From Microglena sp. YARC (Eukaryota > Chlorophyta > Chlorophyceae > Chlamydomonadales > Chlamydomonadaceae): DNA of 64,000 nt. Below, one piece after another: positions 3,956 through 62,880 of the stretch (position 1 is its first letter; the number at the start of each line of letters is the position of its first letter). The position numbers and the translations under genes were made by a program. The DNA lies in assembly GCA_022414725.1 (NCBI GenBank), contig CM039464.1:47657910-47721909 (forward strand), given 5' to 3'. The notes below the pieces were generated by a model, which saw nothing but the letters and a program-made list of their open reading frames with translations, was not told the origin of the DNA and searched no databases.

Positions 3956-4095
3956 TAAGCGTGCAAGTAGAATAGCCAGACACATGCTCAAGGGGTGAAG
4001 TCAAGTCAAGTCAAGGCAATTCAAGTCGAGTCAAGTCAAGTCAAGTGCCACATCAAATGTTGCATCATTCATTGAAGTTTGACTGGTTCACTCAC

Positions 4096-4253
4096 CTTCA
4101 CAGTTTCTCCAGTCCTCAATCTCGCTTCGGTCAGCTCCATCGTTGCCACCTTTCGTTGCGTTGCCAACACACTCAGCCAATTTTCCGCGTCGCTTGCAAC
4201 GCTGCATAGGACTTGTCCCATGTCAGGTGCCAACTCAAATATTGTATCATTCA
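4096..4253 (-). CDS. Unrecognised protein, internal exon, copy 1 of tandem exon array
   Basis: On the minus strand this unit reads NDTIFELAPDMGQVLCSVAS, then DAENWLSVLATQRKVATMEL, then TEARLRTGETVK. It ends in a strong donor (AAG|GTGAGT) and starts after a possible acceptor CTTCAG. The peptide looks like a helical, charged protein segment, but I do not recognise the family. The same exon is repeated at 4278-4435 and 4460-4617 with a period of exactly 182 bp. The spacer between copies would be only 24 nt, bounded by GTGAGT and CAG. Because 182 is not a multiple of 3, reading through without splicing shifts frame. Neighbouring exons of this gene were not identified; it lies downstream of P4H on the same strand. 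Confidence 0.45.
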
Positions 4254-4277
4254 CTGAAGGAATACTGGTTCACTCAC

Positions 4278-4435
4278 CTTCACAGTTTCTCCAGTCCTCA
4301 ATCTCGCTTCGGTCAGCTCCATCGTTGCCACCTTTCGTTCTGTTGCCAACACACTCCTCCAATTTTCCGCGTCACTTGCAACGCTGCATAGGACTTGTCC
4401 CATGTCAGGTGCCAACTCAAATATTGTATCATTCA
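4278..4435 (-). CDS. Unrecognised protein, internal exon, copy 2 of tandem exon array
   Basis: An intact second copy of the 4096-4253 exon. It differs by a few substitutions (W-R for W-L after DAEN, ATER for ATQR). It keeps the open frame and the AAG|GTGAGT donor. Either of these two copies could be the spliced one. Confidence 0.4.
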
Positions 4436-4459
4436 CTGATGGAAGACTGGCTAACTCAC

Positions 4460-4668
4460 CTTCACAGTTTCTCCAGTCCTCAATCTCGCTTCGGTCAGCT
4501 CCATCGTAGCCACCTTTCGTTCTGTTGCCAACACACTCCGCTAATTTTCCGCGTCACTTGCAACGCTGCATAGGACTTGTCCCATGTCAGGTGCCAACTC
4601 AAATATTGTATCATTCACTGAAGGAAGACTGGTTCACTCACCTTCACAGTTTCTCCAGTCCTCAATCT
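4460..4668 (-). pseudogene. Third (broken) and fourth (partial) copies of the tandem exon
   Basis: Copy 3 (4460-4617) carries TAG in place of the Trp codon that follows DAEN, and its donor region has GTTAG in place of GTGAG (plus strand CTAACTCACC). Copy 4 is only the donor end (4642-4668) and then diverges into unrelated sequence. These appear to be decayed members of the array. Confidence 0.5.
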
Positions 4669-4904
4669 CCCGCGAGCCCCCTGCAATCAGACGTGAATTA
4701 TGTTAAGTTTGGTGTGTTGTGGCATACCCAACACTCTGATCAGAACTGCACAAATTGAGTGTGACGTGCCCCCTGCCCCCACCACATGCCTTCTTCACCC
4801 CACTCCCTCACCCTCCACCCCCATCCCACCCCTTATGCAAATGCAGATCAACTGTCAGTAGGCGAGATGCCAGCAGAGCAGCGGCATGCACAAATCAAAG
4901 CTAG

Positions 4905-5060
4905 ACTTTGAGAGCAAAACTTTGAGAGAAAAAACTTTGAGAGAAAAGCTTTGAGAGAAAAGCTTTGAGAGAAAAACTTTGAGAGAAAAACTTTGAGAGA
5001 AAAAACTTTGAGAGAAAAAACTGTGAGAGAAAAACTTTGAGAGAAAAACTTTGAGAGTAA
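4905..5060. repeat. Short tandem repeat, about 15-bp unit
   Basis: ACTTTGAGAGAAAA repeats about ten times with length variation. No gene is seen between 4680 and 6390. Confidence 0.85.
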
Positions 5061-5149
5061 AGAAACAGTCACCCTCAAGTCAGCAATTTAGTCAACCCCA
5101 ACAAATTGAGTGTGTTGAGCCCCCTGCAAATCAACCAGGCAAGAAGTGG

Positions 5150-6125
5150 GTGGTTCAGACCACAGACCACAGTCTACGTACAGCACACCACAGAGCATAG
5201 AGCGCAATCCACAGACAGCAGGCCATAGTTACAGCATACCACAAATCACTGAGCACAATTCACACACAGCAGAGCACAGAGCACAGACCGCTTACAGCAG
5301 AGCACAGAGCACAATTCACAAACAGCAGACCACAGTCCACAGTTACAGCATACCACAGACCATAGAGAACAATCCGCACACTGCGGATCACAATCCACAC
5401 ACAGAATACTACAATCCACACTTTCAGCAGAGCATAGAGCATAGAGCACAATCCACACACAGCAGACCACAGTCCACACGTGCAGCATACCACAGAGCAT
5501 AGAGCACAATCTGCACACAGCGGATCACAATCCACACACAGAATACTACAATCCACACTTTCAGCAGAGCACAGAGCATAGAGCACAATCCACACACAGC
5601 ATACCAGAGTCCACACGTGCAGCAGAGCATAGAGCATAGAGCACAATCCACTGACAGCAGACCACAGTTATAGCATACCACAAAGCATAGCGCACAATCC
5701 TAACACAGCAGCCCACAGTCCACTTACAGCAGAGCACAGAGCATAGAGCACAATCCACACACAGCAGACCACAGCCCACACGTGCAGCAGAGCAAAGACC
5801 ATAGAGCACAATCCACACACAGCAGACCACTGTCCACACGTGCAGCAGAACACAGACCATAGAGCACAATCCACACACAGCAGACCACTGTCCACACGTG
5901 CAGCAGAGCACAGACCATAGAGCACAATCCACACACAGCAGACCACTGTCCACACGTGCAGCAGAGCACAAACCATAGAGCACAATCCACACACAGCAGA
6001 CCGCTGTCCACACGTGCAGCAGAGCAAAGACCATAGAGCACAATCCACACACAGCAGACCACTGTCCACACGTGCAGCAGAGCACAGACCATAGAGCACA
6101 ATCCACACACAGCAGACCACGATCC
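5150..6125. repeat. 58-bp minisatellite, about 16 copies
   Basis: CACACGTGCAGCAGAGC recurs every 58 bp in the right half (5779, 5837, 5895 and on). More diverged units with ACAGTTACAGCATACCACA fill the left half. The long Cys-rich open frames across it are frame products of the repeat, not a gene. Confidence 0.9.
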
Positions 6126-6391
6126 ACAGACGACAGACATCAAAGGAGTGCCAACAGACGAATCAAGAAAACAAAGGCGTACAACAAAAACAGGTAGTGG
6201 GTGTACCATGGATGCCTGCTGCGCTGGGGCAGGGCAGGGAAGGTAGGGAAGGGCTCTGTTCCTATTGTGCGCGATGCATCGTAAATCGAGCGTCCCGGTG
6301 CGACTAGATGCAACCCAAACTCCCCCCAGTGTAATCCAAACAAACCTATTCAGGACTGAATCAACATCATTGTTGTGTTTCTTTTGTTCCT

Positions 6392-6546
6392 ATGTCCTCT
6401 GTCCCACTGGGCTACGTTTCGCCAGAATCTGATGATGATGATGATGATGATGACATTTTTCTTGGAGCCCTACTAGACTCCTTATGTGCTGGAGGCTTAA
6501 CGGAGCCAAAGGGGACTTATGAACATCATGCAAACATCAAATCTGG
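6392..6546 (+). other. Possible coding segment with Asp run, not recognised
   Basis: An open frame starts MSSVPLGYVSPES and continues with eight Asp residues (GAT repeats) and then IFLGALLDSLCAGG. A polypyrimidine stretch ending in CGCCAG lies just upstream of the GAT run and could be an acceptor. It runs straight into the 40-bp satellite at 6547. This is weak evidence for a plus-strand exon; it may be chance. Confidence 0.2.
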
Positions 6547-7018
6547 TCACATGCGATGGCTACGCCCTGGGACCCCCCTAATCTGGTCACATGCGATGGC
6601 TACGTCCTGGGACCCCCCTAATCTGGCCACATGCGATGGCTACGCCCTGGGACCCCCCTAATCTGGCCACATGCGATGGCTACGCCCTGGGACCCCCCTA
6701 ATCTGGTCACATGCGATGGCTACGCCCTGGGACCCCCCTAATCTGGTCACATGCGATGGCTACGTCCTGGGACCCCCCTAATCTGGCCACATGCGATGGC
6801 TACGTCCTGGGACCCCCCTAATCTGGCCACATGCGATGGCTATGCCCTGGGACCCCCCTAATCTGGTCACATGCGATGGCTACGCCCTGGGACCCCCCTA
6901 ATCTGGTCACATGCGATGGCTACGCCCTCGGACCCCCCTAATCTGGTCACATGCGATGGCTACGCCCTGGGACCCCCCTAATCTGGTCACATGCGATGGC
7001 TACGTCCTGGGACCCCGC
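6547..7018. repeat. 40-bp satellite, 12 copies
   Basis: The unit ATGCGATGGCTACGCCCTGG plus GACCCCCCTAATCTGGTCAC repeats about 12 times with very few changes (T/C and G/T at fixed sites). The near-identity points to recent expansion. The ATGCGATGGCTA start also occurs at the end of GC-rich element E (2332-2344), a possible seed. Confidence 0.95.
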
Positions 7019-7040
7019 TTCACGCTACATGACAGGTGCT

Positions 7041-7415
7041 ACACACTGCACTGGTAGAGAATGCTCTGCTGGCAAGCAGGCGGACACATCCAGCATAGCC
7101 CCACCAGCGCTAACAAGCTCACTCACCCACCACCTGCACCCACCACACCCACCACTACAAAACACTCAAGCCTTAGACTTACCTCGCACCAGCTTTAATA
7201 GCAGAGAATGCTCTGCTGGCAAGCAGGCGGACACATCCAGCATAGCCCCACCAGCACTAACAAGCTCACTCACCCACCACCACCATCCATCACACCCACC
7301 ACCACAAAACACTCAAGCCTTAGACTTACCTCGCACCAGCTTTAATAGCAGAGAATGCTCTGCTGGCAAGCAGGCGGACACATCCAGACGGAAAGGTGTG
7401 TCACTCAGCGGTGAA
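7041..7415 (-). CDS. Unrecognised exon with tandemly copied donor end
   Basis: On the minus strand a frame DTPFRLDVSACLPAEHSLLL followed by KLVR ends in GCGAG|GTAAGT, a consensus donor. The donor end repeats with a period of 147 bp: complete copies around 7190 and 7337, and a copy lacking the donor at 7058-7100. The acceptor is uncertain (possibly TTTCACCGCTGAG near 7408). I do not recognise the peptide; another frame (LLASRAFSAIKAGA) is also open, so the reading frame is not settled. It could belong to the same minus-strand gene as the exons near 4.1-4.6 kb. Confidence 0.3.
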
Positions 7416-7439
7416 AATGAAAATGACGTGCCCCACCAC

Positions 7440-7720: not shown

Positions 7721-7765
7721 GGGGGCATTAATACAAATAACTTGGTGCACCCCACCTACCATAAG

Positions 7766-7892: not shown

Positions 7893-7924
7893 GTGAGACG
7901 TACTCACATTTCCTCTGTTACTTG

Positions 7925-8075: not shown

Positions 8076-8207
8076 GACATGTCATATTGCCGTTCCCTAC
8101 CTACCATTGATGCCTTCTTTTTTGAAAACCGTCTCCCCTCCCTCTGTGACATCGCTAAGGTAGGCCAGAATAGTCAAAACGCGCTGGCTGCGCTGTGGAC
8201 CAAACTC

Positions 8208-8470
8208 CTACATGGCAGTGTTGTTTATTTCAGATGTATTGTTTTTTTCAATATTGAGTGGATGGTTGGTAGACCTCGGGATTTATGGCGTGGGCCTGGC
8301 ATGGGTCAAAACACAAAATCCTGCATGGCAGTGCTTTTTGGTTCAGATTTGTTGTACTTTTCAATCTTGAACGGATGGTTGGTAGACCTCGGCATTTATG
8401 ACGTGAGCCTGGCATGAGTCAAAACACGAAATCCTGCATGGCAGTGCTGTTTAGTTCAGATTTATGGCCT
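8208..8470. repeat. 113-bp tandem repeat, 2.5 copies
   Basis: CTGCATGGCAGTG recurs at 8208 (variant), 8321 and 8434. Two long poly-G tracts follow at about 8491-8512 and 8643-8664. I see no gene from 8470 to 9570, only simple repeats and unique filler. Confidence 0.85.
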
Positions 8471-8869
8471 GGCATTTATGGCCTGGCATCAGGGGGGGGG
8501 GGGGGGGGGGGGCAACTTCTAACCAAAATGACCCCATCGTCCAACTTTGTAGATATTGTAGAGAGGATGAAGAATCCGGTTTTGTTTCTTGATTTGGCCT
8601 AGTAGAAAAAAAGTAATGGTCCTCCTAAGTTTTGGGCCGCAGGGGGGGGGGGGGGGGGGGGGGGTCCAGGAAAAAATCTGACATTTTCAAAAAAATAAGG
8701 TACTTTCCAGCCGCTTTTCCAGGCACTTTTTTTCTAGCCCTCAGAATGACATGGGAGTGGAACTAGGGTGTTCTTCTACTTAATACCAGTCCAAAAATGC
8801 TATTGGGAGAGAGACCCACCACATATTTTGCCCAGGGCACATGGGTGGGGTGTGGGGTGGGGGCTCCAG

Positions 8870-11042: not shown

Positions 11043-11985
11043 TCATTTGTGTGTGTGTGGTACTGGTGTGTGAATGTACTGCCTGCTGTTGAAAAGGGTA
11101 ATTTGTGTGTGTATGTGTGTGTGATACTGTTGTGTGAATGAGCTCCAGTTGAAAAGGGTAAAAGACGAATCATCTCTGTGCCTCACCACCCCATTCTCCC
11201 GTGGCATACGAGCTGCAGCTGCTATGTGCTCCTCCACTGCTGTGCGTGATCCTGGTGTGTGAATGTGCTGCTGCCATACTGTTGAAAAGGGTGATTTGTG
11301 TGTGTGTGTGCGTGATCCTGGTGTGTGAATGAGCTCCTGTTGAAAAGGGTAATTTGTGTGTGTGTGTGTGTGTGTGATCCTGATGTGTGAATGAGCTCCT
11401 GTTGAAAAGGGTAATTTGTGTGTGTGTGTGTGTGCGTGATCCTGGTGTGTTAATGAGCTCCTGTTGAAAAGGGTAATTTGTGTGTTTGTGTGTGCGTGAT
11501 CCTGGTGTGTTAATGAGCTCCTGTTGAAAAGAGTAATTTGTGTGTGTGTGTGTGTGCGTGATCCTGGTGTGTGAATGTGCTCCTGTTGAAAAGGGTAATT
11601 TGTGTGTGTGTGTGTGTGTGCGTGATCCTGGTGTGTGAATGAGCTCCTGTTGAAAAGGGTAATTTTTGTGTGTGTGTGTGCGTGATCCTGGTGTGTTAAT
11701 GAGCTCCTGTTGAAAAGGGTCATTTGTGTGTGTGTGTGTGTGCGTGATCCTGGTGTGTTAAAGAGCTCCTGTTGAAAATGGTAATCTGTGTGTGTGTGTG
11801 CGTGATACTGGTGTGCGTATGAGCTCCTGTTGAAAATGGTAATTTGTGTGTGTGTGTGTGTGTGTGTGCGTGCGTGATCCTGGTGTGTGAATGAGCTCCT
11901 GTTGAAAAGGGTCATTTGTGTGTGCGTGTGTGCGTGATACTGGTGTGTGAATGAGCTCCTGTTGAAAAGGGTGCCCGACTAATCA
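11043..11985. repeat. TG-rich minisatellite with copied P4H donor edge
   Basis: The unit is about 55-65 bp: GTGATCCTGGTGTGTGAATG, AGCTCCTGTTGAAAAGGGTA and then (TG)n of varying length, about 14 copies. At 11187-11237 it includes a second copy of the 3' end of P4H exon 3. On the minus strand this copy reads VEEHIAAAARMPRENGV and then GTGAGG. A sequence resembling one unit (TGTGTGAATGCACTGCC...GTTGAAAATGG) recurs at 16190-16225. Confidence 0.85.
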
Positions 11986-11999
11986 TCAGTGTGACTCAC

Positions 12000-12204
12000 C
12001 TCCCCATTCTCCCGTGGCATAAGAGCTGCAGCTGCTATGCGCTCCTCCACCCAAGCAAGCACCCCGGTAGGGTCCATGTCTGTGGACAGGAAGGCACCCT
12101 CACTAGTCCGGGTCTGCTGCTCCTCTTCCACCTCCTCACCCGGACGGTACGCCAATCCAGAGGGGTAAATTTCCTCTTTGGCCAAGGCAATGATGTGGTC
12201 ACAC
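12000..12204 (-). CDS. P4H: Prolyl 4-hydroxylase, exon 3
   Basis: The 205-nt exon has acceptor CCCCAG and donor GAG|GTGAGT. Its first base completes the Arg codon left by exon 2. It encodes CDHIIALAKEEIYPSGLAYR, PGEEVEEEQQTRTSEGAFLS and TDMDPTGVLAWVEERIAAAA, then LMPRENGE. Plant P4H has the same order: CDHLI or CEAII, RTSSGTFL, a DKTGxLxxVEKKIAxAT segment and MIPRSHGE. Three acceptors compete: this one, and partial copies at 12387 and 12587. Only this copy continues into RTSEGAFL, so it is chosen. P4H hydroxylates prolines in secretory proteins in the ER/Golgi lumen using Fe(II), 2-oxoglutarate and oxygen. Confidence 0.9.
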
Positions 12205-12592
12205 CTGGGGGGGTGGGGGGTGGGTAGGGTTGGAGTGGGATGCAGTCTTGGTCTTAAACCTGTCTGCAGGCCTGTGATTACATTCTCAGTTCGGGTGTGC
12301 TGCCCCTCTTTCGCCTCCTCACCTGGACGGTACGCCAATCCAGAGGGGTAAATTTCCTCTTTGGTCAAGGCAATGATGTGGTCACATCTGGGGTGAGGTG
12401 GTGTGGTGTGTGGTGTGTGGTGTGGTGTGGTGTGGTGGGGTGCAGTCTTGGTCTTCAACCTGTCTGCAGGCCTGTGATTACATTCTCAGTCCGGGTCTGT
12501 TGCCCCTCTTCCACCTCCTCACCCGGACGGTACGCCAATCTGGAGGGGTACATTCCCTCTTTGGTCAAGGCAATGATTTGGTCACACCTGGG
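12205..12592 (-). repeat. Two extra copies of P4H exon 3 acceptor end
   Basis: On the minus strand, copies beginning at 12587 and 12387 repeat the acceptor plus about 95 nt of exon 3 (DHIIALTKEEIYPSGLAYRP then GEE). Both then switch to NVITGLQTG instead of the real continuation. The acceptor AG is present in both (CAG|GTGTG-like or CAG|ATGTG). The copies are upstream of the complete exon in transcript order, so each is a decoy that would lead to out-of-place sequence. Confidence 0.8.
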
Positions 12593-13025
12593 GTTGGGTG
12601 GGGTGGGTGGGGTGGGGTGGAGTGGGTGGGGTGGAGTGGGGTGGGTGTGCTGTGTGGGGTGGGTGGAGTGGGGTGGGGTGGGTGGGGTGGGGTGGGGTGG
12701 AGTGGGGTGGAGTGGAGTGGGTGGGGTGGTGGGTGGGGTGGTGTGGGTGGGGTGGAGTGGGGGTGGGGTGGTGTGGTGTGGGGTGGGGTGGGGTAGGGTA
12801 GGGTGGAGTGGGGTGGGGTAGGGTGGTAGGGTGGGGTGGGGTAGGGTGGGTAGATTGGTTGGGTTGGGGTTGGGTTGGGTTGGGTTGGTTGGGTTGGGTT
12901 GGGTTGGGTTGGGTTGGGTTGGGTTGGGATGGGTTGGGTTGGGATGGTTGGGTTGGGTTGGGTTGGGTTGGGTTGGGTTGGGTTGGGTTGGGTTGAGTTG
13001 GGGTGGGATGGGTAGGGGTGGGGTG
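12593..13025. repeat. (GGGGT)n / (GGGTT)n array
   Basis: The left part is GGGTG/GGAGT-rich, the right part is regular TTGGG pentamers (about 12855-13000). It is strongly G-rich on the plus strand and therefore has G-quadruplex potential. It sits in P4H intron 2, immediately next to the third acceptor copy. Confidence 0.9.
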
Positions 13026-33599: not shown

Positions 33600-33962
33600 T
33601 GGGGGTATCTTGGCATCACATCACCATACATAACATTAACATCACAACTCATCAACATCGCCATCACAACACAACTCAACGCATAGGTATCATGCGCAGC
33701 CTTGGCAGCCCCCCATACAAGGTGAGAAGAACATCACAACACAATCACATCACAACAGATAAGATATCATAGCAGCCTTGACAGCTCCCCACCAAGTTAG
33801 AGAAGAACAACACAACTCATCACATCACTTCACATCACATCACAACACATAGGACATCATGGCAGCCTTGACAGCGCCACATGAAGGTGAAGAAGAGCAT
33901 CACAACTCATCGCACCACATCACAACTCATCACATCACTTCACATCACATCACAACACATAG
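33600..33962 (+). repeat. Three extra copies of a GluQRS exon acceptor end
   Basis: Units of about 80-110 bp carry CATAG or ATAAG, then sequence like GACATCATGGCAGCCTTGAC AGC and GAAGGTGAAGAAGA, separated by (CATCACAAC)n. Edges start at 33687, 33764 and 33853. The fourth, at 33963, continues into the complete exon. The copies cover the acceptor and about 45 nt of coding sequence. Confidence 0.7.
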
Positions 33963-34097
33963 GACATCATGGCAGCTTTGACAGCCCCCCATGAAGGTGA
34001 AGAAGAACCTGTTTATCCTGGTACCTGTCGAAGAACATGGCAAGATCATCAGAAGCAGGATCAGCAACAGCAGCAACAGCGGAAATGGGCAGCAGTG
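33963..34097 (+). CDS. gluQ: Glutamyl-Q tRNA(Asp) synthetase-like, zinc-site exon (3' end uncertain)
   Basis: After CACATAG the frame reads DIMAALTAPHEGEEEPVYPG then TCRRTWQDHQ and a Gln run. Bacterial GluQRS has the same block: SAPH followed by YPGTCR, where Tyr and Cys are zinc ligands. The partner CxC motif should be in an upstream exon that I did not find. The frame stays open until a TGA at 34143-34145. The donor is not clear; GTG|GTGGCA after 34097 keeps phase 0 with the next exon but is a weak site. GluQRS attaches glutamate to queuosine of tRNA(Asp) and is a truncated relative of glutamyl-tRNA synthetase. Confidence 0.65.
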
Positions 34098-37448: not shown

Positions 37449-37754
37449 GAAGATGCCCAGGCCAAGCCAAGGTCACACAAAGACGGCCAGACCAAGCCAA
37501 TGTCTGGTGAAGATGCCCAGGCCAAGCCATTGTCTGGTGAAAATGCCCAGACCCAGCAAGTGTCTGGTGAAGATGCCCAGGCCAAGCCAATGTCTCCTGG
37601 CAACATGCTGGGCAGGAGAGGCAAGGCAGGCAACGGCAAAAGGCCAAAGAAGGTGACCAAAGCAGCCCAGCCTGAGGGCAAGAATATTTCGTGGAGGTTC
37701 CGAGTGCCTGAGGGGGAGATGGTCACCTTTGTGGATGGACACTTCGGACCACAG
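37449..37754 (+). CDS. gluQ: Glutamyl-Q tRNA(Asp) synthetase-like, exon with 10-residue repeats
   Basis: The exon runs from GTCACAG to CCACAG|GTGGGG, phase 0 at both ends. It starts with five imperfect 10-residue repeats (SGEDAQAKPM type, a 30-bp coding minisatellite), then a basic linker (GKRPKKVTKAAQPEGK), then NISWRFRVPEGEMVTFVDGH FGPQ. The last part matches the xxRxRVPDGxVxFxDxxxGxQ segment of bacterial GluQRS, just before GDFVLRRxDG. The repeats and basic linker are an insertion that bacterial enzymes lack. Three further copies of the donor end follow in the intron. Confidence 0.8.
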
Positions 37755-38238
37755 GTGGGGCGGGGGTGTGTGGTAGGGTGGGTGGGTGTGAGGGGTGTAG
37801 AAGTGCCTGTGGTGTGTGTGTGTATAGGAGTACCTGATGGGAGATGGTCGCCTTTGTGGATGGACACTTTGGTCCACAGGTGGGGAGGGGGACCGGGGTG
37901 TGTGGGTTGGGGTGGGGGTGTGTGGGTTGGGGCGGGTTGGGGGTGTCAAGCAGTGCGTGTGAGTGTAAGAGTGCCTGATGGGAATTTGGTCGCTTTTGTG
38001 GACAGACACTTCGGTCCACAGGTGGGTGAGCAGATATTTTTTCCGTTTCGGAAGGGGGTCGTTTGGTACCTTTCAGGGATTTTGTACTTTCCAAGCGTGG
38101 GGCCCAGGTAGCGATTTGTGTAGGGTGGCCATGGGAGTGTCTCTGTGTGTAGGTTTGGGTAGGTGTGTGTGTAAAAGTGTGTAGGGTGGGTGGGGGGGTG
38201 GGGTGGGGTGGGGGTGGGAGGAGAGTGTGTGCGTGTCG

Positions 38239-38271
<33 letters not shown>

Positions 38272-38560
38272 GGGGGTATGTCTGTGTGTCGGAGAGTGTG
38301 TGTGTGTAAGAGTGCCTGGTAGTGAGGTCATCGCCTCTATGGATGAATACTTCAGTTGACAGGTGGGTGTGAGTGTCTCTGTGTGTGTTGGGAGTGTGTG
38401 TGTAGGTGTGTCTGGGGGGAGTGTGTGTGTGCAGGAGGTCTATGTAGAACTGTGTGTGTGTGAGGGAGTGTGTGTGTGGGGGGGGGGGGGGTATGTGTGT
38501 ATGCAGGAGTGTGGGGGGGTAGGAGCGTATGTGTGTTTTAGGTGTGTGTGGAGTTTGTAG
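37755..38560 (+). repeat. GT-rich intron with three copied donor ends
   Basis: Segments 37828-37879, 37970-38021 and 38311-38362 each repeat the last 50 or so nt of the preceding exon (VPEGEMVTFVDGHFGPQ in the original) and then a donor (ACAG|GTGGGG, ACAG|GTGGGT, ACAG|GTGGGT). Each is preceded by GTAAG or ATAG. Small indels break the original frame in the copies. (TG)n, GGGGT runs and a poly-G tract separate them. Confidence 0.85.
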
Positions 38561-39694: not shown

Positions 39695-39813
39695 ATACTT
39701 TCACACTCCACTGGTGTTGGACCAGCACGGAGTGAGGCTGGCAAAGAGGAACAACGCACTCACCTTGCGAACTCTTCGAGAGCATGGGGCGGTGCCATCT
39801 GAAATGCGCAAAG
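39695..39813 (+). CDS. gluQ: Glutamyl-Q tRNA(Asp) synthetase-like, KMSKS-region exon
   Basis: The 119-nt exon lies between GCAACAG and AAAG|GTTGGG. It encodes (R)YFHTPLVLDQHGVRLAKR, NNALTLRTLREHGAVPSEMR K. Bacterial GluQRS continues YxHLPLLLDxxGxRLSKRxx AxxLRxLR at this point; RLAKR takes the place of the KLSKR form of the class I KMSKS loop, with Ala for Ser. The last residues, which are variable in the family, and the stop codon were not found. Copies of the exon's 3' end lie downstream at about 39919-39985 and 40588-40645. Confidence 0.88.
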
Positions 39814-40650
39814 GTTGGGTTGAACCTGCTGCATATTGACGAGTCCTAGGTTGTGAATCCAAGTCCCATCTATTTTCCGGGGGTATCAAGAGCGTGGGTT
39901 GGTATTAATCCAAGTCCCGGTTGTGTCGAGAGCGTGGAGCGGTGCCATCTGATATGCGAAAAGGTTGGGTTGAACCTGCTGCATATTGACGAGTCCTAGG
40001 TTGTGGATCCAAGTCCCATCTATTTCCCGGGGGTATCGAGAGCATGGGTTCCTTATTCCCCAGGGGTATCGAGAGCGTGGGTTCCGAACTTCCCAGGGGT
40101 ATCTAGAGCGTAGGTTCCGAACTTCCCAGGGGTATCGAGAGCGTGGGTTCCGAACTTCCTAGGGGTATCGAGAGCGTGGGTTCCTTATTCCCCAGGGGTA
40201 TCAAGAGCGTAGGTTCCGAACTTCCCAGGGGTATTGAGAGCGTGGGTTCCTTATTCCCCAGGGTATCAAGAGCGTGGGTTCTTAATTCCCCAGGGGTATC
40301 GAGAGCGTGGGTTCTTAATTCCCCAGGGGTATTGAGAGCGTGGGTTCCTTATTCCCCAGGGGTATCAAGAGAGTAGGTTCCGAACTTCCCAGGGGTATCG
40401 AGAGTGTGGGTTCCTAATTCCCCGGGGGTATTGAGAGCGTGGTTTCCTTATTCCCCAGGGGTATTGAGAGCATGGGTTCCAAATTTCCCTGGGGTGTCCA
40501 GAGCGTGGGTTGATATGAATCTACTGGGATCCACATTTTCCCGGGGGTATCGAGAGCGTGGGTTGGTATTAATCCAAGTCCCGGTTGTGTCGTGAGCGTG
40601 GGGCGGTGCCATCTGATATGCGCAAAGGTTGAGTTGAACCTGCTGCATAT
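39814..40650 (+). repeat. 34-bp minisatellite grown from a GluQRS exon end
   Basis: The unit GGGGTATCGAGAGCGTGGGT TCCGAACTTCCCAG repeats about 14 times (40030-40500). Its GAGAGCGTGGG core equals the exon's own CGAGAGCATGGGGCGG. Longer copies (GAGCGTGG(A/G)GCGGTGCC, ATCTGATATGCG(A/C)AAAGGTT) with the donor GTTGGG or GTTGAG bracket the array at 39919-39985 and 40588-40645. Confidence 0.85.
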
Positions 40651-40734
40651 TGTTGTTGAATTGTGACAATGAGAAGCACAGACAATAAAGTGAAAGAACC
40701 TGAAAAAATATAGGTAATAATAAGCCACGGTCAG

Positions 40735-49799: not shown

Positions 49800-51473
49800 G
49801 GCATGGCCGAATAATCTTGACCCCAGTAACGGGGCGATTGGTGGCATCTATTTGACCAACCGCCAACCAATAGCACACTAGCAGCTTTGCGACTCAACTG
49901 GCCCGGCCCAAATTATCTTGACCACAGTAACCGGGCGATCAGTGGCTTCTGTTTGACCGTTCGCCAATCAAAAGCACACCAGCAGCTTTGCGACTCAACT
50001 GACCTGCCACGAATATTCTTGACCCCAGTAACGGGGCGATCAGTGGCTTCTGTTTGACCGACTGCCAATCAAAAGCACACTAGCAGCTTTGTAACAAAAC
50101 AGTCTTGCCACGAATACTCTTAACCCCAGTAACGGGGCGATTGGTCGCATCTGTTTGACCGCCAGCCAATTAAAAGCACACTACCAGCTTTGCGACTAAA
50201 CTGATCTGCCACGAAAACTCTTGACCCCAGTAACGCGGCGATTGGTGGCATCTGTTTGGAAGAACGCCAATCAATTGCACACTAGCAGCTTTGCGATCAA
50301 ACTGACCTGCCACGAATATTCTTGACCCCAGTAACGGGGCGATCAGTGGCTTCTGTTTGACCGACCGCCAATTAATAGCACACTAGCAGCTTTCCGACTA
50401 AACTGGTCTAGCTCAAATAATCTTGACCCCAGTAACGGGGCGATTGGTGGCATAAGTTTGGACGACCACCAATCAAAAGCACACTAGCAGCTTTGCGACT
50501 CAACTGACCTGCCACGAATACTCTTGACCCCAGTAACGGGGCGATGGGTGGCATCTGTCTGACCGACCGCCAATCAATTGCTCACTAGCAGCTTTGCGAC
50601 TAAACTGGCTTAGCCCGAATATTCTTGACCCTAGTAACGGGGCGATTGGTGGCATCTGTTTGGAAGACCGCCAATCAAAAGCACACTAGCAGCTTTGCGA
50701 CTGAACTGACCTGCCATGAATACTCTTGACCCCAGTAACCGGGCGATTGGTGGCATCTGTTTGACCGACCGCCAATCAAAAGCACGCTAGCAGCTTTGCG
50801 ACTAAACTGGCCTGCCATGAATATTCTTGACCACAGTAACGGGGCGATTGGTGGCATCTGTTTGAACGACTGCCAATCAATAGAACACCACCAGCTTTGC
50901 AACTAAACTGGCCTAGCCCAAATAATCTGAACCCCAGTAACCGGGCGATTGGTGGCATCTGTTTGACCGACCGCCAATTAATAGCACACTAGCAGCTTTA
51001 CAACTAAACTGGTATAGCCCAAATAATCTGAACCCCAGTAACAAGGCGATTGGTGGCATCTGTTTGACCAAACGCCAATCTAAAGCACACTAGCAGCTTA
51101 GTAATTGAACTGGTCTGGCCCAAATAATCTTGACCACAGTAACCGGGCGATCAGTGGCTTCTGTTTGACTGACCGCCAATCAAAAGCACACTAGCAGCTT
51201 TGCGACTAAACTGACCTGCCACAAATAATCTTGACCCCAGTAACGGGGCGATGGGTGGCATTTGTTTGACCAACCGCCAACCAATAGCACACTAGCAGCT
51301 TTGCGACTCAACTGACCTGCCACGAATACTCTCGACCCCAGAAACCGGGCGATCAGTGGCTAATGTTTGCAAATAAACTGGCCTGGCCCAAATCATCTCG
51401 ACCCCAGTATTGGGGCGTTTGGTGGCATATGTTTGGGCGACCACCAATCAATAGCACACTAGCAGCTTTGCGA
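49800..51473 (-). repeat. 101-bp satellite derived from the end of the cyclophilin coding region
   Basis: GCAGCTTTG recurs every 101 bp (49881, 49982, 50083, 50184 and on), about 16 copies. On the minus strand each unit holds the last 25 or so codons of the cyclophilin ([12 protein letters not shown], then VKIIRARPV and a TAG stop) plus 3' flanking sequence GTCGCAAAGCTGCTAGTGTG. Most units keep the DRPVT and the stop region almost unchanged. It begins directly after the true stop codon at 51474. Confidence 0.93.
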
Positions 51474-51638
51474 CTAAACTGGCCTTGCCCGAATAATCTT
51501 GACCTCCGTTACCGGGCGATCAGTGGCATCTGTTTGGACGACCGCCAATCGCTTAATAACTGACATGCCACTGCAGACACGGCCAAAGATGGTATGCTTG
51601 CCATCTAGCCACGGAGTAGGGGCGAGAGAGATGAAGAA
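51474..51638 (-). CDS. PPIL1: Cyclophilin (PPIL1/CYP18-2 type), last exon
   Basis: After the acceptor CGTGCCTAG the exon reads [54 protein letters not shown] and then TAG. Plant CYP18-2 has [20 protein letters not shown] and VCRGMEVIKRLGSVQT, then DRPIHEVKI, so the orthology is clear. The Phe, Trp and His residues that form the cyclophilin active site (FF, PW, GKH) are present. PPIL1-type cyclophilins are peptidyl-prolyl isomerases of the spliceosome. The segment downstream of the stop is a satellite of its own 3' end, and the intron upstream holds about ten copies of its acceptor end. Confidence 0.95.
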
Positions 51639-52055
51639 CTAGGCACGGAGAGATAGGGAGATGGTTTCATGGTTATGCATGAAGGGATAGGGGTACGTTT
51701 ATTTATTTACTGATTTATTTGCCTTTATGTATGAAGAACTAGGCACGGAGAGATAGGGGTTATGCGTATTGGTTAGGAACGGATGAATGGGGATGGAGCA
51801 TATACAGGTTGTGTGATGCGTGGGGTTATTGAGACCATCTAGCCATGGAGTAGGAGCAAGAGAAGAACTAGGAAAGGAGAGATAGGGGTATTGCGCATTG
51901 TTTAGGGAACGGATGAATGGGGATGGAGCATAGACAGGTTGTGCGATGCGTGGGGTTATTGAGACCATCTAGCCACGGAGTAGGGGCAAGAGAGATGAAG
52001 AACTAGGAACAGAGAGATGGGGTGGTGGTTTCATGCTTAGGCATGAAGGGATAGG
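51639..52055 (-). repeat. First copies of the cyclophilin acceptor end
   Basis: CATCTAGCC(A/C)..GGAGTAGG followed by AGAGA(T)GAAGAACTAGG occurs at about 51835-51875 and 51967-52005. On the minus strand these read CCTAG then [12 protein letters not shown], the first 40 nt of the last exon. Between them is GGTTAGG..GGATGAATGGGG sequence shared with 55.8-57.2 kb. Confidence 0.85.
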
Positions 52056-55000
52056 GTTAATGCCTATTGGGCAGGCGTAAAGGGATATGAGTAATGCGTA
52101 TTGGTTAGGCGTGAAGATGGATATGGTTAGTAATGCCTATTGGTTAGGCGGTGAAGGGATATGAGTAATGGTTAGGCCTATTGGTTAGGTGCGTGAAGGG
52201 ATATGAGTAATGGGTATTGGTTAGGCGTGAAGGGATATGAGTAATGGGTATTGGTTAGGCGTGAAGGGATATGAGTAATGGGTATTGGTTAGGCGTGAAG
52301 GGATATGAGTAATGGGTATTGGTTAGGCGTGAAGGGATATGAGTAATGGGTATTGGTTAGGCGTGAAGGGATATAAGTAATGCGTATTGGTCAGGCATGA
52401 AGGGATATGAGTAATGCGTATTGGTTAGGCGTGAAGGGATATGAGTAATAGGATTGGTTTAGGCGTGAAGGGATATGAGTAATGCGTATTGGTTAGCGTG
52501 AAATATGAGTAATGCTATTGTTAGCGTGAAGGGATATGAGTAATGCGTATTGGTTAGGCGTGAAGGGATATGAGTAATGGTAATTGGTTAGGCGTGAAGG
52601 GATATGAGTAATGGGTATTGGTTAGGCGTGAAGGGATATGAGTAATGTGTATTGGTTAGGCGTGAAGGGATATGAGTAATGGTATTGGTTAGGCGTGAAG
52701 GGATATTATGAGTAATGCGGTTAGGCGTGAAGGGATATGAGTAAGCATGGTATCGGTAGGCGTGAAGGGATATGCGTGAAGGGATATGAGTAATGCGTAT
52801 TGGTTAGGCCGTGAAGGATATATGAGTAATGCCTATTGGTTAGGCGTGAAGGGATCGCGCGTGAAGTATGAGTAATGCCGTATTGGTTAGGCTGTGAAGG
52901 GATTGGGATTGGTTAGGCGTGAAGGGATATGAGTAATGCGTATTGGTTATGAAGGGATATGAGTAATGCTATAGGCGTGAAGTGAGTTAATATTGGTTAA
53001 TATGAGTAATGCGTATTGGTTAGGTGAAGGATAAGTAATGCGTATTGGTTAGGCGTGAAGGGATATGAGTAATGGGTAGTTAAAGGATCTGCGTATTGGT
53101 TAGTGAAAGGGATATGAGTAATGCGTATTGGTTTTGAGTGAAAAAGGGATGAGTCGTAAGGATATGGTTGGTTAGGCGTGAAGGGATCGTGAAGGGATAT
53201 GTGGTTATGCGTATTGGTTAGGCGTGAAGGGATAATGATAAGGTTAGGCGTGAAGGGATATGAAGTAATGGTATTGGTATGAAGGATATGAGTATGGTAT
53301 TGGCGTGAAGGGATATGACAGTAATGCCTATTGGTTAGGCGTGAAGGGATAATGGCGTAGTTAGGCGTGATGCGTATTGGTTAGGCGTGAAGGGATTATG
53401 AGTAATGCGTATTGGTTAGGCGTGAAGGGATATGAGTAATGGGTATTGGTTAGGCGTGAAGGGAGTATGAGTAATGCGTAGGTTAGGCGTGAAGGATATG
53501 AGTAATGCGTAATTTGGTTAGGCGTGAAGGGATATGAGTAATGCGTATTGGTTAGGCGTGAAGGGATATGAGTAATGGGTATTGGTTAGGCGTGAAGGGA
53601 TATGAGTAATGCGTATTGGTTAGGCGTGAAGGGATATGAGTAATGCGTATGTTAGGCCGTGAAGGGATATGAGTAATGCCTATTGGTTAGGCGTGAAGGT
53701 ATGAGTAATGCTATTGGTTAGGCGTGAAGGGATATGGAGTAATGCCTATTGGTTAGGCGTGAAGGGATATGAGTAATGCCTATTGGTTAGGCGTGAAGGG
53801 ATATGAGTAATGCGTATTTGGTTAGCGTGAAGGGATATGAGTAATGCGTATTGGTTTAGGCGTGAAGGGATATAGTAATGCCTATTGTATGTTAGGCGTG
53901 AAGGGATATGAGTAATGGGTATTGGTTGTTAGGCCTGTGAAGGGATATGCGTATTGGTTAGGCGTGAAGGGATATGAGTAATGCGTATTGGTAGCGTGAA
54001 GGGATATGAGTAATGCGTATTGGTTAGGCGTGAAGGGATATGAGTAATGGGTATTGGTTAGGCGTGAAGGGATATGAGTAATGTGTATTGGTTAGGCGTG
54101 AAGGGATATGAGTAATGCGTATTGGTTAGGCGTGAAGGGATATGAGTAATGCCTATTGGTTAGGCGTGAAGGGATATGAGTAATGCCTATTGGTTAGGCG
54201 TGAAGGGATATGAGTAATGCGTATTGGTTAGGCGTGAAGGGATCTGAGTAATGCGTATTGGTTAGGCGTGAAGGGATATGAGTAATGCGTATTGGTTAGG
54301 CGTGAAGGGATATGAGTAATGCCTATTGGTTAGGCGTGAAGGGATATGAGTAATGGGTATTGGTTAGGCGTGAAGGGATATGAGTAATGCCTATTGGTTA
54401 GGCGTGAAGGGATATGAGTAATGCGTATTGGTTAGGCGTGAAGGGATATGAGTAATGCGTATTGGTTAGGCGTGAAGGGATATGAGTAATGCGTATTGGT
54501 TAGGCGTGAAGGGATATGAGTAATGGGTATTGGTTAGGCGTGAAGGGATATGAGTAATGCCTATTGGCCGTTAGGGGCGTGAAGGGATATGAGTAATGGG
54601 TATTGGTTTGGTTAGGCGTGAAGGGATATGAGTAATGCGTATTGGTTAGGCGTGAAGGGATATGAGTAATGCGTATTGGTTAGGCGTGAAGGGATATGGG
54701 ATTGGTTAGGCGTGAAGGATATGAGTAATGCGTATTGGTTAGGCGTGAAGGGATATGAGTAATGCGTATTGGTTAGGCGTGAAGGATATGAGTAATGGAG
54801 TAATGTTATGGCGTGAAGGGATATGAGTTAATGGTATTGGTTAGGCGTGAAGGGATATGAGTAATGCCTATTGGTTAGGCGTGAAGGGATATGAGTAATG
54901 CGTATTGGTTAGGCGTGAAGGGATCTGAGTAATGCCTATTGGTTAGGCGTGAAGGGATATGAGTTATGCGTATTGGTTAGGCGTGAAGGGATATGAGTAA

Positions 55001-55830
55001 TGCCTATTGGTTAGGCGTGAAGGGATATGAGTAATGCGTATTGGTTAGGCGTGAAGGGATATGAGTAATGGGTATTGGTTAGGCGTGAAGGGATATGAGT
55101 AATGCGTATTGGTTAGGCGTGAAGGGATATGAGTAATGCGTATTGGTTAGGCGTGAAGGGATATGAGTAATGCGTATTGGTTAGGCGTGAAGGGATATGA
55201 GTAATGCGTATTGGTTAGGCGTGAAGGGATATGAGTAATGCGTATTGGTTAGGCGTGAAGGGATATGAGTAATGCGTATTGGTTAGGCCGTGAAGGGATC
55301 TGAGTAATGCTTATTAGGCGTGAAGGGATATGAGTAATGCGTATTGGTTAGGCGTGAAGGGATATGAGTAATGCGTATTGGTTAGGCGTGAAGGGATATG
55401 AGTAATGCGTATTGGTTAGGCGTGAAGGGATATGAGTAATGCGTATTGGTTAGGCGTGAAGGGATAGTGAGGTTAAGGGATGGGTAAGGGATTGGTTATT
55501 GGGTGAAGGGATATGAGTAATGCCTATTGGTTATTGGTTAGGCGTGAAGGATATGAGTAATTGGTATTGGTTAGGCGTAAGGGATATGAGGCGTATTGGT
55601 TAGGCGTATTGGTAGCCGTGAAGGGATATGAGGTATTGGTTAGGCGTGAAGGGATATGAGTAATGGGTATTGGTTAGGCGTGTAGGGATATGAGTAATGC
55701 GTAGAGTAATGCGTATTGGTTAGGCCTGAAGGGATATGAGTAATGTGTATTGGTTCGGCATGAAGGGATATGAGTAATGGGTATTGGTTAGGCGTGAAGG
55801 GATATGAGTAATGCGTATTGTTTAGGAAAG
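52056..55830. repeat. 34-bp satellite, about 110 copies
   Basis: The unit GCGTGAAGGGATATGAGTAA TGCGTATTGGTTAG repeats over 3.7 kb. Variation is mainly TGCGTAT, TGGGTAT and TGCCTAT. Between about 52.4 and 54.0 kb and at 55.5-55.8 kb there are many indels. The unit is a fragment of the larger repeat at 55.8-57.2 kb (GGCATGAAGGGATAGGGGTA, ATGCGTATTGGTTAGG). It lies in the 8.7-kb cyclophilin intron. Confidence 0.97.
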
Positions 55831-57175
55831 GGATGAATCGAAACCAGCTAGCCACGGAGCAGGGGTGAGAGAGATTAAGAAGATTAGGCACAGAAAGATA
55901 GGGAGGTGGTTTTATGGTAAGGCATGAAGGGATAGGGTTAATGCGTATTGGTTAGGAAAGGGATGAATCAAAACCGTATGGGCACGGAGTAGAGGCAAGA
56001 GAGATGAAGAACTAGGCATGGAAAGATAGGGGTAATGCGCATTGGTTAGGAAAGGGATGCATGGGGATGGAGCATAGACAAGTTGTGTGATGCTCGGGGC
56101 CATTGGAACCATTAAGCCACGGAGTAGGGGTACGAGAGATGAAGAACGAGGCACGGGGAGATAGGGGTAATGCGTTAGGTTAGGCATCAAGGGATAGGGG
56201 TTCTGGGTATTGGTTAGGAAAGGGATGAATCAAAACCATCTAGCCACGGAGTGGGGGCACGAGAGATGAAGAACTAGGCACGGAGAGATAGGGAGGTGGT
56301 TTCATGGTTAGGCATGCAGGGATAGGGGTACGCATATTTAGTTGTATTTATTTGTGAAGGACTAGGCATGGAGAGATAGGGAGGAGGTTTCATGGTTACG
56401 CATAGGTATAGGGGTACGATTATTTATTTTTTAATTTGTATTTATTTATGAAGAACTAGGCACGGAGAAATAGGGGTAATGCGTATTGGTTAGGAAAGGG
56501 AAGAATGAGGATGGAGCAATAGACAGGTTTTTGTGTGATGCGTGGGGCCATTTGGAACCATTGGAACCATCTAGCCAGGGAGTAGGGGCAAGAGAGATGA
56601 AGAACTAGGCACGGAGAGATAGGGAGGTGGTTTCAAGGTTAGGCATGAAGGGATGGGGGTACGTTTATTTATTTATATGTATTTATTTATGCAGGACTAG
56701 GCACAGAGAGATAGAGGTAATGCATATTGGTTAGGAAAGAGATGAATGGGGATGGAGCATAGACAGGTTGTGTGATGCGTGGGGCCATTGGAACCATCTA
56801 GCCACGGAGTAGGGGCAGGAGAGATGAAGAACTAGGCACGGAGAGATAGGGAGGTGGTTTCATGGTTAGGCATGAAGGGATAGGGGTACGTTTATTTATT
56901 TGTATATATTTATGAAGAACTAGGCACGGGGAGATAGGGATAATGCGCATTGGTTAGGAAAGGGATGCACGGGGATGGAGCATGACAAGTTGTGTGATGC
57001 GTGGGGCCAGCGAAACCATCTAGCCACGGAGTAGGGGCACAAGAGATGAAGAACTAGGCACGGGGAGATAGGGGTAATGCGCATTGGTTAGGAAAGGGAT
57101 GCATGGGGATGGAGCATAGACAAGTTGTGTGATGCGTGGGGCCATTGAAACCATCTAGCCACTGAGTAGGGGGGT
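55831..57175 (-). repeat. Larger tandem repeat with copied acceptor ends of the cyclophilin last exon
   Basis: Units of about 125-330 bp contain ATCTAGCCACGGAGTAGGGG and GAGATGAAGAACTAGGCACG, starting near 55846, 55979, 56112, 56238, 56570, 56797, 57018 and 57150. On the minus strand each has the acceptor CGTGCCTAG and the first 35-40 nt of the last exon. Spacers hold TTTATTTATTTGTAT and GGATGGAGCATAGACAAGTTGTG. The last one, at 57150, is cut off inside the exon part. Confidence 0.88.
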
Positions 57176-60424: not shown

Positions 60425-60650
60425 ATGAGTGAGTTGGTTGGGTTGGTTGGGTCAATTGGGTTGGTTGGATTGGTTGGGGTTGGGTTGGTTGGTTGGGGTG
60501 GGTTGGTTGGTTGGGGTGGCATACTAGCACCAGTGTTTGGCACACTAAGCCTGCGTGGTTGGTTTGGTTTGGTTTGGTTTGGTCTGGTTTGGTTTGGCAC
60601 ATGAGTGAGGTTGGTTTGGTTTAGTTTGGTTTGGCAACAGAATCGAGCGG
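60425..60650. repeat. (GGTT)n-type low-complexity tract
   Basis: GGTTGGTTGGGTT and GGTTTGGTTTGG repeats in two blocks, with ACTAGCACCAGTGTTTGGCA between. It abuts the acceptor of the cyclophilin middle exon, within 10 bp, so it takes the polypyrimidine-tract place on the minus strand. Confidence 0.9.
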
Positions 60651-60654
60651 ACCA

Positions 60655-60800
60655 AAGCTAGTCAGATACGAGATTGTTGGCTGACGTGTCAGGCTTCGTC
60701 TTGGTCACCTTCAGTCGCACAAACAACCGGGCAACAAGGTGACCCTGGGGGCTCCCGCCCCTCAGAAAGGGGGCTCCACCAAAAAATGCACGATAGTGAA
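60655..60800. repeat. GC-rich dispersed element E copy
   Basis: GCTGACGTGTCAGGCTTCG, GGTGACCCTGGGGGCTCCCG CCCCTCAGAAAGGGGGCTCC match the element at 10553-10835 and 41220-41290. The unique stretch 60800-61120 has open frames on both strands but no recognised protein. Confidence 0.5.
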
Positions 60801-61126
60801 TAACGTTGAGAAACTAGGATTCTGGTTTTTGGTGGTTGGCCCCAGTGAAAGCAAATGGGTTTGCCCCCTCAACCTCACGCCTTGTATTAAGGCAAACCAT
60901 TTATTCATAACCGCCCTCAATGTAGCAGCGCCCCCACTGTTACACTGGATACACCCGGGAGGAACCGCGGTACTCAAGGGTTTGGCGTCGACAGAGGCCA
61001 TGAGCCCACGCCACCTGCGCATGAACCTGCGACATGGGCCGGGCACCTGAAGTTGATAAGGACGGTCAAGTTGTTCTATTTATTCTGGTTGACCAGCTCT
61101 TGACTGAGATCCAGCCTGGGACCATG

Positions 61127-62098
61127 GACACTGTTTATTTTTTTGGCCACTGGTTGCAGCTTCTATGCAGCTCCCTTTCCCTGCTCTTGGGCCACTGGTA
61201 GCAGCTTCTATGCAGCTCCCTTTCCCTGCCCTTGGGCCACTGGTAGCAGCTTCTCTGCAGCTCCCTTTCCCTGCCCTTGGGCCAAATCTGAAGCTAGCTA
61301 GTGTGCCTAAAAGCTGACATAGAGGGCATTTGAATGTAGCTGAAAGCATGGGGACTGGCCCAGTGGCTAGCTAATGTAGCTGAAAGCATGGGGACTGGCC
61401 CAGTGGCTGGCTAATGTAGCTGAAAGCATGGGGACTGGCCCAGTGGCTGGCTAATGTAGCTGAAAGCATGGGGACTGGCCCAGTGGCTAGCTAATGTAGC
61501 TGAAAGCATGGGGACTGGCCCAGTGGCTAGCTACTGAAGCTGAAAGCATGGGGACTGGCCCAGTGGCTGGCTAATGTAGCTGAAAGCATGGGGACTGGCC
61601 CAGTGGCTAGATAATGTAGCTGAAAGCATGGGGGCTGGCCCAGTGGCTGGCTAATGTAGCTGAAAGCATGGGGACTGGCCCAGTGGCTGGCTAATGTAGC
61701 TATAAGCATGGGGACTGGCCCAGTGGCTAGCTAATGTAGCTGAAAGCATGGGGACTGGCCCAGTGGCTGGCTAATGTAGCTGAAAGCATGGGGACTGGCC
61801 CAGTGGCTAGCTAATGTAGCTGAAAGCATGGGGACTGGCCCAGTGGCTGGCTAATGTAGCTGAAAGCATGGGGACTGGCCCAGTGGCTAGCTAATGTAGC
61901 TGAAAGCATGGGGACTGGCCCAGTGGCTAGCTAATGTAGCTGAAAGCATGGGGACTGGCCCAGTGGCTGGCTAATGTAGCTGAAAGCATGGGGACTGGCC
62001 CAGTGGCTGGCTAATGTAGCTGAAAGCATGGGGACTGGCCCAGTGGCTGGCTAATGAAGCTGACTGGAAGCTGCCATGTACAGCCCCCCCAAAAAACA
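61127..62098. mobile_element. Family A MITE swollen by 54-bp and 40-bp tandem repeats
   Basis: The left end CACTGTTTATTTTTTTGGCC and the right end CAAAAAACACTA suit a family A element. Inside, GCAGCTTCTATGCAGCTCCC TTTCCCTGC with GGGCCACTGGTA occurs three times (54 bp). Then the 40-bp unit CTGAAAGCATGGGGACTGGC CCAGTGGCTGGCTAATGTAG occurs about 18 times (61326-62055). The 40-bp unit comes from the CCAGTGGCTGGCT arm of the MITE. The element lies just downstream of the cyclophilin exon at 62135, on the minus strand. Confidence 0.75.
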
Positions 62099-62134
62099 CT
62101 AAACATGAATGGTTAAGCATTCTGAAGGACATAC

Positions 62135-62233
62135 CTCGTCTTCGAATTTTCCACCGTAAATTGACTCCCCGCCACGCCCGGTTCCCGTTGGATCGCCTCC
62201 TTGAATCATGAAGTCAGTGATGATCCGATGAAA
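62135..62233 (-). CDS. PPIL1: Cyclophilin (PPIL1/CYP18-2 type), FHR exon
   Basis: The 99-nt exon, phase 0, lies between GTCTGCAG and GAG|GTATGT. It reads [33 protein letters not shown]. This is the cyclophilin active-site block (Arg of FHR, Phe and Met of DFM, Gln of QGGD), and GTGRGGxSIYGxxFEDE is typical of PPIL1. Upstream coding sequence (about 50 residues, including the RGYY motif) was not found; it may be beyond the window or in an exon too short to see. Three extra copies of its acceptor end lie upstream in transcript order. Confidence 0.95.
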
Positions 62234-62239
62234 CTGCAG

Positions 62240-62880
62240 ACAAGAGGGAGGGGGAGAGTGGCAGTGGTGGTGGTGAGTGTCTGTGCGTGTGCGTGTGTGG
62301 GGGTGGGGTGGGGTGGGGATCGCCTGCTTGAATCATGAAGTCAGTGATGATCTGATGAAACTGCAGACAAGAGGGAGGGGGGAGGGGCGGTGGTGGTGGT
62401 AAGTGTCTGTGCGTGTGCGTGTGTGTGGGGTGTGTGTGGGGGGGTTGGGATCGCCTCCTTGAATCACGAAGTTGGTGATGATCCGATGAAACTGCAGACA
62501 CGAGGGAGGGGTGGTGGTGGTGGTGATATGCGTGTGTGTGGGGCGGGGTGAGTGTCTGCGTGTGTGTGGGGTGTGTGGGGGTCAGGGGAGTCTGTGTGTG
62601 GGGTGTGTGGGGTGGGGGTGGGGGGGATCGCCTCCTTGAATCATAAAAGTCAGTGATGATCCGGTGAAACTGCATACACGAGGAGGGGGGGGGGGGGGGG
62701 GGGGGGAGGATGGTGTGTGTGTGTGCGTTTGTGTGGGGGGGTGAGTGCCTGTGCATGTGTGTGGGGTGTGTGGAGGGGAGTGAGGGTGGGAGAGTGTCTG
62801 AGCGTGTGTGTGTGTGTTTGTTTGTGTGTGTGTGTGTGTGTATGTGTGTGCGTGTGTGTGTGTGTGTGTGGGTGGGTGGG
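62240..62880 (-). repeat. GT-rich tract with three copied cyclophilin acceptor ends
   Basis: On the minus strand, exon-like starts at 62360, 62491 and 62668 repeat the acceptor (CTGCAG) and FHRIITDF(M)IQ(A/G)GDP, about 42 nt, then pass into low-complexity CCCAC/ACAC sequence. The copies have changes (Leu/Ile/Val and an Ala for Gly; an extra base in the one at 62668). The spacers are (TG)n, GGGGT runs and a poly-G tract at 62687-62706. Confidence 0.9.

Follow-up and report, generated by a model that had tools for sequence, protein, structure and literature searches.

Genes and exon models of the window

We analysed a 64-kb stretch of contig CM039464.1 of the green alga Microglena sp. YARC, referred to as the window, in which splice junctions and gene ends recur within tandem arrays. 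The window contains three intron-rich genes, encoding a prolyl 4-hydroxylase (P4H), GluQRS and a PPIL1-type cyclophilin (PPIL1). Exon junctions were placed from tblastn homology, the reading frame and the GT-AG ends of introns, with orthologue alignment as well for P4H; the arrays themselves were not used. P4H lies on the - strand and has eight exons. Four exons of GluQRS were found on the + strand and three of PPIL1 on the - strand, while the 5' part of each of these two genes was not found. With the exon-adjacent splice sites, the P4H exons, GluQRS exons Y-Z-W and the PPIL1 exons join in frame. In the window, 25 splice junctions were scored, together with three stop codons and a single start codon. 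The acceptor of GluQRS exon Y is the junction with the least certain placement, and the donor of GluQRS exon X was left out of the counts because its position is uncertain.

By BLASTP the P4H protein matches the public gene model P0001 with 90% identity over 100% of the query. Relative to the window sequence at 3476-13979, P0001 drops two segments: it lacks exon E, and its exon A is 15 residues short. The first named matches after P0001 come from Haematococcus, Chlamydomonas and Volvox, and the protein is close to those of Chlamydomonadales. The PPIL1 exons resemble solved peptidyl-prolyl isomerases (best 8xi2) and human PPIL1. A PDB search with a GluQRS exon gave no match, one with P4H gave weak matches only (E 0.4), and Rfam and tRNA scans of the window found nothing. 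A 30-nt (10-codon) in-frame repeat opens GluQRS exon Y (37449-37595, + strand; Tandem Repeats Finder, TRF, and translation) and was not seen in the single green-algal homologue compared, P0122. Tandem repeats identified by TRF make up 60% of the 24.9 kb summed over the 11 introns with both ends placed, in agreement with the first-pass annotation, which held that arrays swell the introns.

Copies of splice junctions

A junction was classified as copied when a same-strand alignment within 8 kb ran across it with a minimum score of 28 and a minimum of 7 on either side, the self-diagonal being blocked. Under this rule 9/25 window junctions were copied, one of them marginally, and 16/25 were not; at a stricter score of at least 35, 8/25 were copied. 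The copied junctions are four donors and five acceptors on both strands of unrelated genes, so the earlier observation that copies carry splice sites together with exon edges of both kinds was sound. Reversed sequence, used as a control, scored 0 at 22/25 junctions and at most 21 at the other three. AG or GT is intact in 24/28 listed copies (counting the 12 best for PPIL1 exon r), a proportion that junction-anchored alignment favours. Native edges and their copies differ by about 3 to 43% at the five junctions compared, and by more in one truncated unit.

Five of the copied junctions belong to P4H. At donor F (3476; exon 3599-3476) about six 80-nt units containing AAATG/GTGAGC across the junction occupy 2671..3599 (TRF, sequence), and a donor copy with 46 nt of exon lies at about 3157 (score 49). 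Donor E (4642; exon 4680-4642) is followed by three more 182-nt units within 4040..4680 (TRF; scores 86, 82 and 67 at 4278, 4460 and 4096). Each unit consists of the final 28 nt of the exon, the donor and about 150 nt of intron, and the exon itself is in frame and aligned to orthologues. This place, at 4.1-4.6 kb, had been described as a copied whole exon; the junction is indeed copied, as a donor edge with 28/39 exon nt and not as a whole exon. The acceptor of exon D (8208) is the marginal case. A 113-nt array upstream of the exon barely enters it (8201..8489; TRF; score 31 at 8315), the copy holds only 7 nt of exon, and AG is not intact at the aligned place. Both edges of exon B are copied. 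A copy of the donor edge (12000) with 51 exon nt lies at 11187 (11160..12000; score 85; TRF), beyond an eleven-copy 62-nt array within the same intron, and the acceptor (12205) has two extra copies with about 100 nt of exon (12204..12643; scores 74 and 69 at 12388 and 12588; tblastn).

In GluQRS, exon X, which begins at 33963, is preceded by three copies spanning its acceptor (33962) within 33673..34031 (scores 82, 58 and 49 at 33852, 33686 and 33762; tblastn). The donor edge of exon Y (37754), 53 nt of exon, has downstream copies within 37703..38367 (scores 62 and 37 at 37879 and 38362) that restart with that exon segment, and another diverged copy lies near 38021. In PPIL1 the intron between exons q and r holds many copies of the acceptor edge of exon r (51639), with 34-nt arrays between them (51639..57170; scores up to 90; tblastn, TRF); at least 12 upstream copies reach score 28. 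Exon p (62233-62135) has three upstream copies spanning its acceptor (62234), with 44 nt of exon, within 62135..62700 (scores 91, 66 and 64 at 62361, 62492 and 62670). By eye there are weak resemblances at two further P4H junctions, acceptor E and donor A, and at GluQRS acceptors W and Y; these fell below the rule and were scored as misses.

The first-pass annotation listed 14 places. Seven span placed junctions (4.1-4.6, 11.2, 12.2-12.6, 33.7-33.9, 37.8-38.4, 51.8-57.2 and 62.3-62.7 kb), two span gene ends, and five lie at no placed junction. Among these five, the repeats are real TRF arrays at 7.2, 9.6-10.4 and 59.2 kb and real diverged copies at 47.1 kb, while at 19.1 kb neither TRF, whose nearest array begins at 19259, nor self-comparison of 18.7-19.3 kb found an array. 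Ten open reading frames (ORFs) from unexplained stretches of the window gave 0/10 Pfam matches, and unannotated genes may lie at the five unplaced sites. Two copied junctions were absent from that list, P4H donor F and the marginal acceptor D.

Copies of gene ends

Two of the three window stop codons, those of PPIL1 and GluQRS, lie within copied units. The end of the PPIL1 coding sequence and its 3' flank form about 16 units of 101 nt at 49808..51550 on the - strand (TRF), and the stop is copied 15 times; the array at 49.8-51.5 kb had been correctly recognized as a gene end. Identity in this array is 0.826 between the native end and its copies and 0.838 among the copies, and five junction arrays compared gave no clear pattern. 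The array at 39.9-40.6 kb, previously taken for a donor array, is the copied end of GluQRS. Here the last coding segment, stop and 3' flank (39776..40651, + strand) have one full copy (score 104 at 39989); a second match at the stop scored 20, and by eye a further downstream copy reaches about the stop. No copy of the P4H stop or the P4H start was found under the scoring rule.

Copies in other stretches of the genome

Two genes outside the window were added to the scored set. An alpha/beta hydrolase gene, found in an 80-kb stretch of C3 and mapped using four homologues with 36 to 42% identity, has 5/7 junctions copied. For one copy of its acceptor 3, at 14060, the best-scoring partner is the native site (14566). 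The donor of its exon 4, whose position is uncertain and which has score-31 copies, was left out of the counts. A gene in an 80-kb stretch of C2 has two ion-channel domains (Pfam), from which we infer a two-pore potassium channel; it has 0/2 junctions copied. TRF found no array in its 644-nt intron and 0/25 points there had a copy, so the lack of junction copies is expected if such copies follow array density. The C2 stretch also holds a third gene, one donor of which has three copies; it was noticed through them and hence left out of the counts. Exon-edge copies are thus not peculiar to the window but present in two other stretches of the genome.

Extent of the units inside exons

The best copies of the 14 copied junctions reach 7, 10, 28, 38, 44, 44, 44, 46, 51, 53, 65, 98, 100 and 109 nt into the exon; the units end inside exons and not at splice sites. 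The exon-side end point is mostly common to the copies of one edge (28, 28 and 28 nt at P4H exon E; 44, 44 and 44 at PPIL1 exon p; 53 and 53 at GluQRS exon Y), which suggests that at each edge one founding unit was then multiplied.

Frequency at junctions relative to background

The same rule finds a local copy at 2035/3029 noncoding points of the window (67%) and at 921/1244 of its intron points (74%). Dense copies were therefore rejected as proof of hot spots, random noncoding points being copied more often than junctions. In the pooled scored genes a local copy was found at 1084/1463 intron points (74%), and in the hydrolase introns at 168/206. About 43% of intron points are low-complexity. 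A founder weight was applied, in which each point counts as 1/(1 + number of copies), so that a long array counts once; this weighting is a model. The founder-weighted frequency is 0.32 in the pooled introns and 0.51 in those of the hydrolase gene.

Against the noncoding background of the window 5.8/25 copied junctions are expected, and the observed 9 is attained in 14% of trials in which the junction set is shifted circularly. When low-complexity points are dropped the expectation is 4.8/25 and shifts reach 9 in 7%. A plain binomial against the same background gives 0.06, and 0.02 without low-complexity points. The window introns alone lead one to expect 7.7/25 (P 0.35), or 6.3 without low-complexity points (P 0.16). 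With the two other genes pooled, 14/34 junctions are copied and 20/34 are not, while the introns of the scored genes predict 11.0/34 (P 0.18, in a small sample). A conserved functional edge also makes old junction copies easier to detect than old intron copies.

Across the pooled introns the founder-weighted frequency by distance from the junction is 0.29 (7-60 nt), 0.40, 0.34, 0.36, 0.32 and 0.25 (beyond 1200 nt), with no peak toward the junction. Introns as a whole stand at 0.32 against 0.15 away from modelled genes. TRF coverage ranges from 1 to 80% over twelve 10-kb pieces.

Other repeats and coding segments

A dispersed element of about 70 nt occurs in the window at 13341-13426, 15238-15303, 47911-47981, 48595-48664 and 2689-3150, as well as in stretches L013, L015, L019 and L021. 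It starts just past two P4H donors, A and F; AGGTGTGCATTA seems by eye to flank the element at the former, and at the latter the element has been absorbed into the 80-nt array. The window also contains several blocks of a diverged satellite (19259-25191; TRF) whose units, about 85 to 90 nt long, often differ by small indels, and a 7-kb TGTA-type tetranucleotide tract (26197-33234) adjoining a 1000-N gap. A AAACCCTA-type interstitial tract at 45647-45696 (TRF) has a motif that we take to be telomere-like.

Elsewhere, among the top three segments listed per piece, copies of one ORF segment are spaced 2.18 to 2.19 kb apart near the start of C3 (stretches L010 and L011, the first 50 kb, and also L009 and L012), where a long tandem array seems to lie. 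In stretch L002 two long ORFs (5574-9989) reach coding scores of 168, the highest listed, and 105; no introns can be seen in them, in contrast to the intron-rich genes. Coding segments resembling retrotransposons, some of them copia-like, were recognized by eye in translations from L004, L007, L020 and L026.

Origin of the copies

We consider it likely that the copies are minisatellites of the kind called mirages in lancelets, generated by frequent local tandem duplication and filtered by selection on coding sequence. Intron or gene-flank DNA would duplicate in tandem at a high rate, in stretches that range from tens of nt to a few hundred, and then expand, presumably by slippage or template switching together with unequal exchange. 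A stretch straddling a coding edge would carry exon sequence and the splice site along. Copies that break the frame or displace the working site would be lost, while those on the intron or 3' flank side would be harmless and tolerated because the exon-adjacent site still works. The copies would thus be neutral, with the exon-adjacent splice site staying in use. Given such selection against exon-disrupting copies, coding edges would be the only places where exon sequence multiplies, unless a unit is in frame. Only one array, the repeat of GluQRS exon Y, was seen to lie entirely within coding sequence, and the length of its unit, 30 nt, is divisible by three; although a single case, it fits the role given to selection.

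Several observations weigh against this reading. All 9269 pooled points, introns and exons included, lead one to expect 5.8/34 copied junctions where 14 were seen, an excess of about 2.4-fold (P 0.0008, a value that treats the points as independent). After masking, which removed sequence recurring in other genome stretches, introns are still richer than the outside regions (0.30 versus 0.18). In two green algae tandem repeats have been reported in excess toward intron ends (PMC3887541). The sample is five genes, the hydrolase gene alone contributes 5/7, and its choice from a coding-score list was not blind, since repeats in a translated segment drew attention to it. Junctions are, then, enriched relative to all sequence but not clearly relative to introns (14 versus 11.0), and the remainder is an intron-wide excess. 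We conclude that the excess is a general property of the introns; the present sample shows none at the junction.

The intron surplus that persists after masking leaves room for a bias linked to genes. Tandem duplication might be favoured in transcribed introns through a link to genes or transcription, without being specific to junctions, which would be compatible with mirage-type duplication filtered by selection. The founder-weighted contrast between introns and outside regions speaks for it with or without masking, as does the report that repeat density is highest in introns of the same two algae (PMC3887541). The outside regions, however, contain unmasked old mobile elements and unmodelled genes, variation between regions in TRF coverage is very large, and no array is present in the channel-gene intron. 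We regard this bias as possible yet somewhat doubtful. A broader version, which we think unlikely, would have a lineage-wide, gene-coupled tandem duplication, perhaps linked to transcription or R-loops, that put exon-edge copies at about 40% of junctions and many gene ends and that continuously makes intron growth, spare splice sites and material for intron gain genome-wide.

The first-pass annotation went further in another direction and proposed that the arrays are seeded by duplication targeted to exon-intron junctions, for example through events at R-loops or at the ends of introns. The excess over all pooled points, the 5/7 junctions of the hydrolase gene and the published excess toward intron ends (PMC3887541) would favour such targeting. 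Copies at junctions do exceed chance when reversed sequence is the standard, but they do not clearly exceed other points of the same introns, where neither the count nor the distance profile sets the junction apart. Stop codons, at which nothing is spliced, are copied as well, which argues against a process tied to splicing. Moreover, the units run 7 to 109 nt into the exon before they stop, and 20/34 junctions have no copy. Targeting is in our judgement very unlikely, and a junction-targeted process is not needed to explain the copies.

Slightly less probable still is that the copied edges are leftovers of introns born by tandem duplication of exon segments containing AGGT. That model has real examples (PMC4974935), and by eye P4H intron A-B has CCAGGTGTG, a 9-nt match, at both its ends; the copied cases, however, have an array inside an intron that repeats one of its edges. 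An assembly artefact can practically be dismissed: tandem arrays are hard to assemble and the window holds a 1000-N gap, but the copies differ from the native edge to the extent given above and occur at many separate places.

Comparison with known systems

Introner-like elements are repeated sequences bearing splice sites, one and the same sequence making up introns of unrelated genes. In the stretches examined, the algal junction copies differ from them in holding coding sequence of their own gene and lying beside it.

In the Rogers model, exemplified by the potato RdRp gene, an intron is gained by tandem duplication across an intron-exon boundary (PMC4974935). A boundary-crossing duplication is common to that case and to the alga, in which no new intron has been demonstrated. 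Human genes in segmental duplications have internal tandem repeats at exon-intron boundaries (PMC2812944). There the repeat number varies between recent paralogues and transcripts back the new introns, whereas the algal cases are single genes known from DNA only. A genome-wide study of Chlamydomonas reinhardtii and Volvox carteri reported that introns hold repeats at the greatest density and that repeats are in excess near intron-exon junctions (PMC3887541). These algae are related to the present one; repeats were counted there by position, while we asked for exon edges inside the units.

The closest counterparts are the mirages of lancelets (amphioxus), minisatellites that span exon-intron boundaries in Adh3, the globins BflGb6 and BflGb9, TnC and PGBD5 (PMC3087553, PMC3902484), with more cases noted in PMC3902484. 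Together with the green-algal repeat excess (PMC3887541), they contradict the statement of the first-pass annotation that no described system behaves in this way. As in mirages, the algal tandem copies cross a donor or an acceptor and take in part of the exon, 5' and 3' boundaries are both affected, and AG or GT survives in many copies though not in all. Mirage units measure 10 to 160 bp, while the algal units are mostly about 80 to 220 nt. Regular splicing is undisturbed by mirages, their array length is unstable between alleles or cells, and their inner copies are homogenized to the exclusion of the boundary copy; in the single algal assembly the exons join in frame through the exon-adjacent sites. 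The alga also differs in that it is not a cephalochordate, in the greater density of copies in the few genes scored (14/34), in the copying of gene ends, and in that some copies are now separated from their edge by hundreds to thousands of nt and by further arrays. A literature search, with most subscription papers outside its reach, turned up nothing on arrays that span exon boundaries in green algae.

The algal arrays are a dense new case of an already known kind, for which we found no earlier report in the green-algal lineage. They may also hold a warning for gene predictors, as P0001 drops exon E and part of exon A, whether or not the copied edges are the cause. Mirages have so far been described from a few lancelet genes; an alga with about 40% of its scored junctions copied would be a good system for studying splice-site choice amid duplicated sites, intron growth by tandem duplication and whether copies become new introns.

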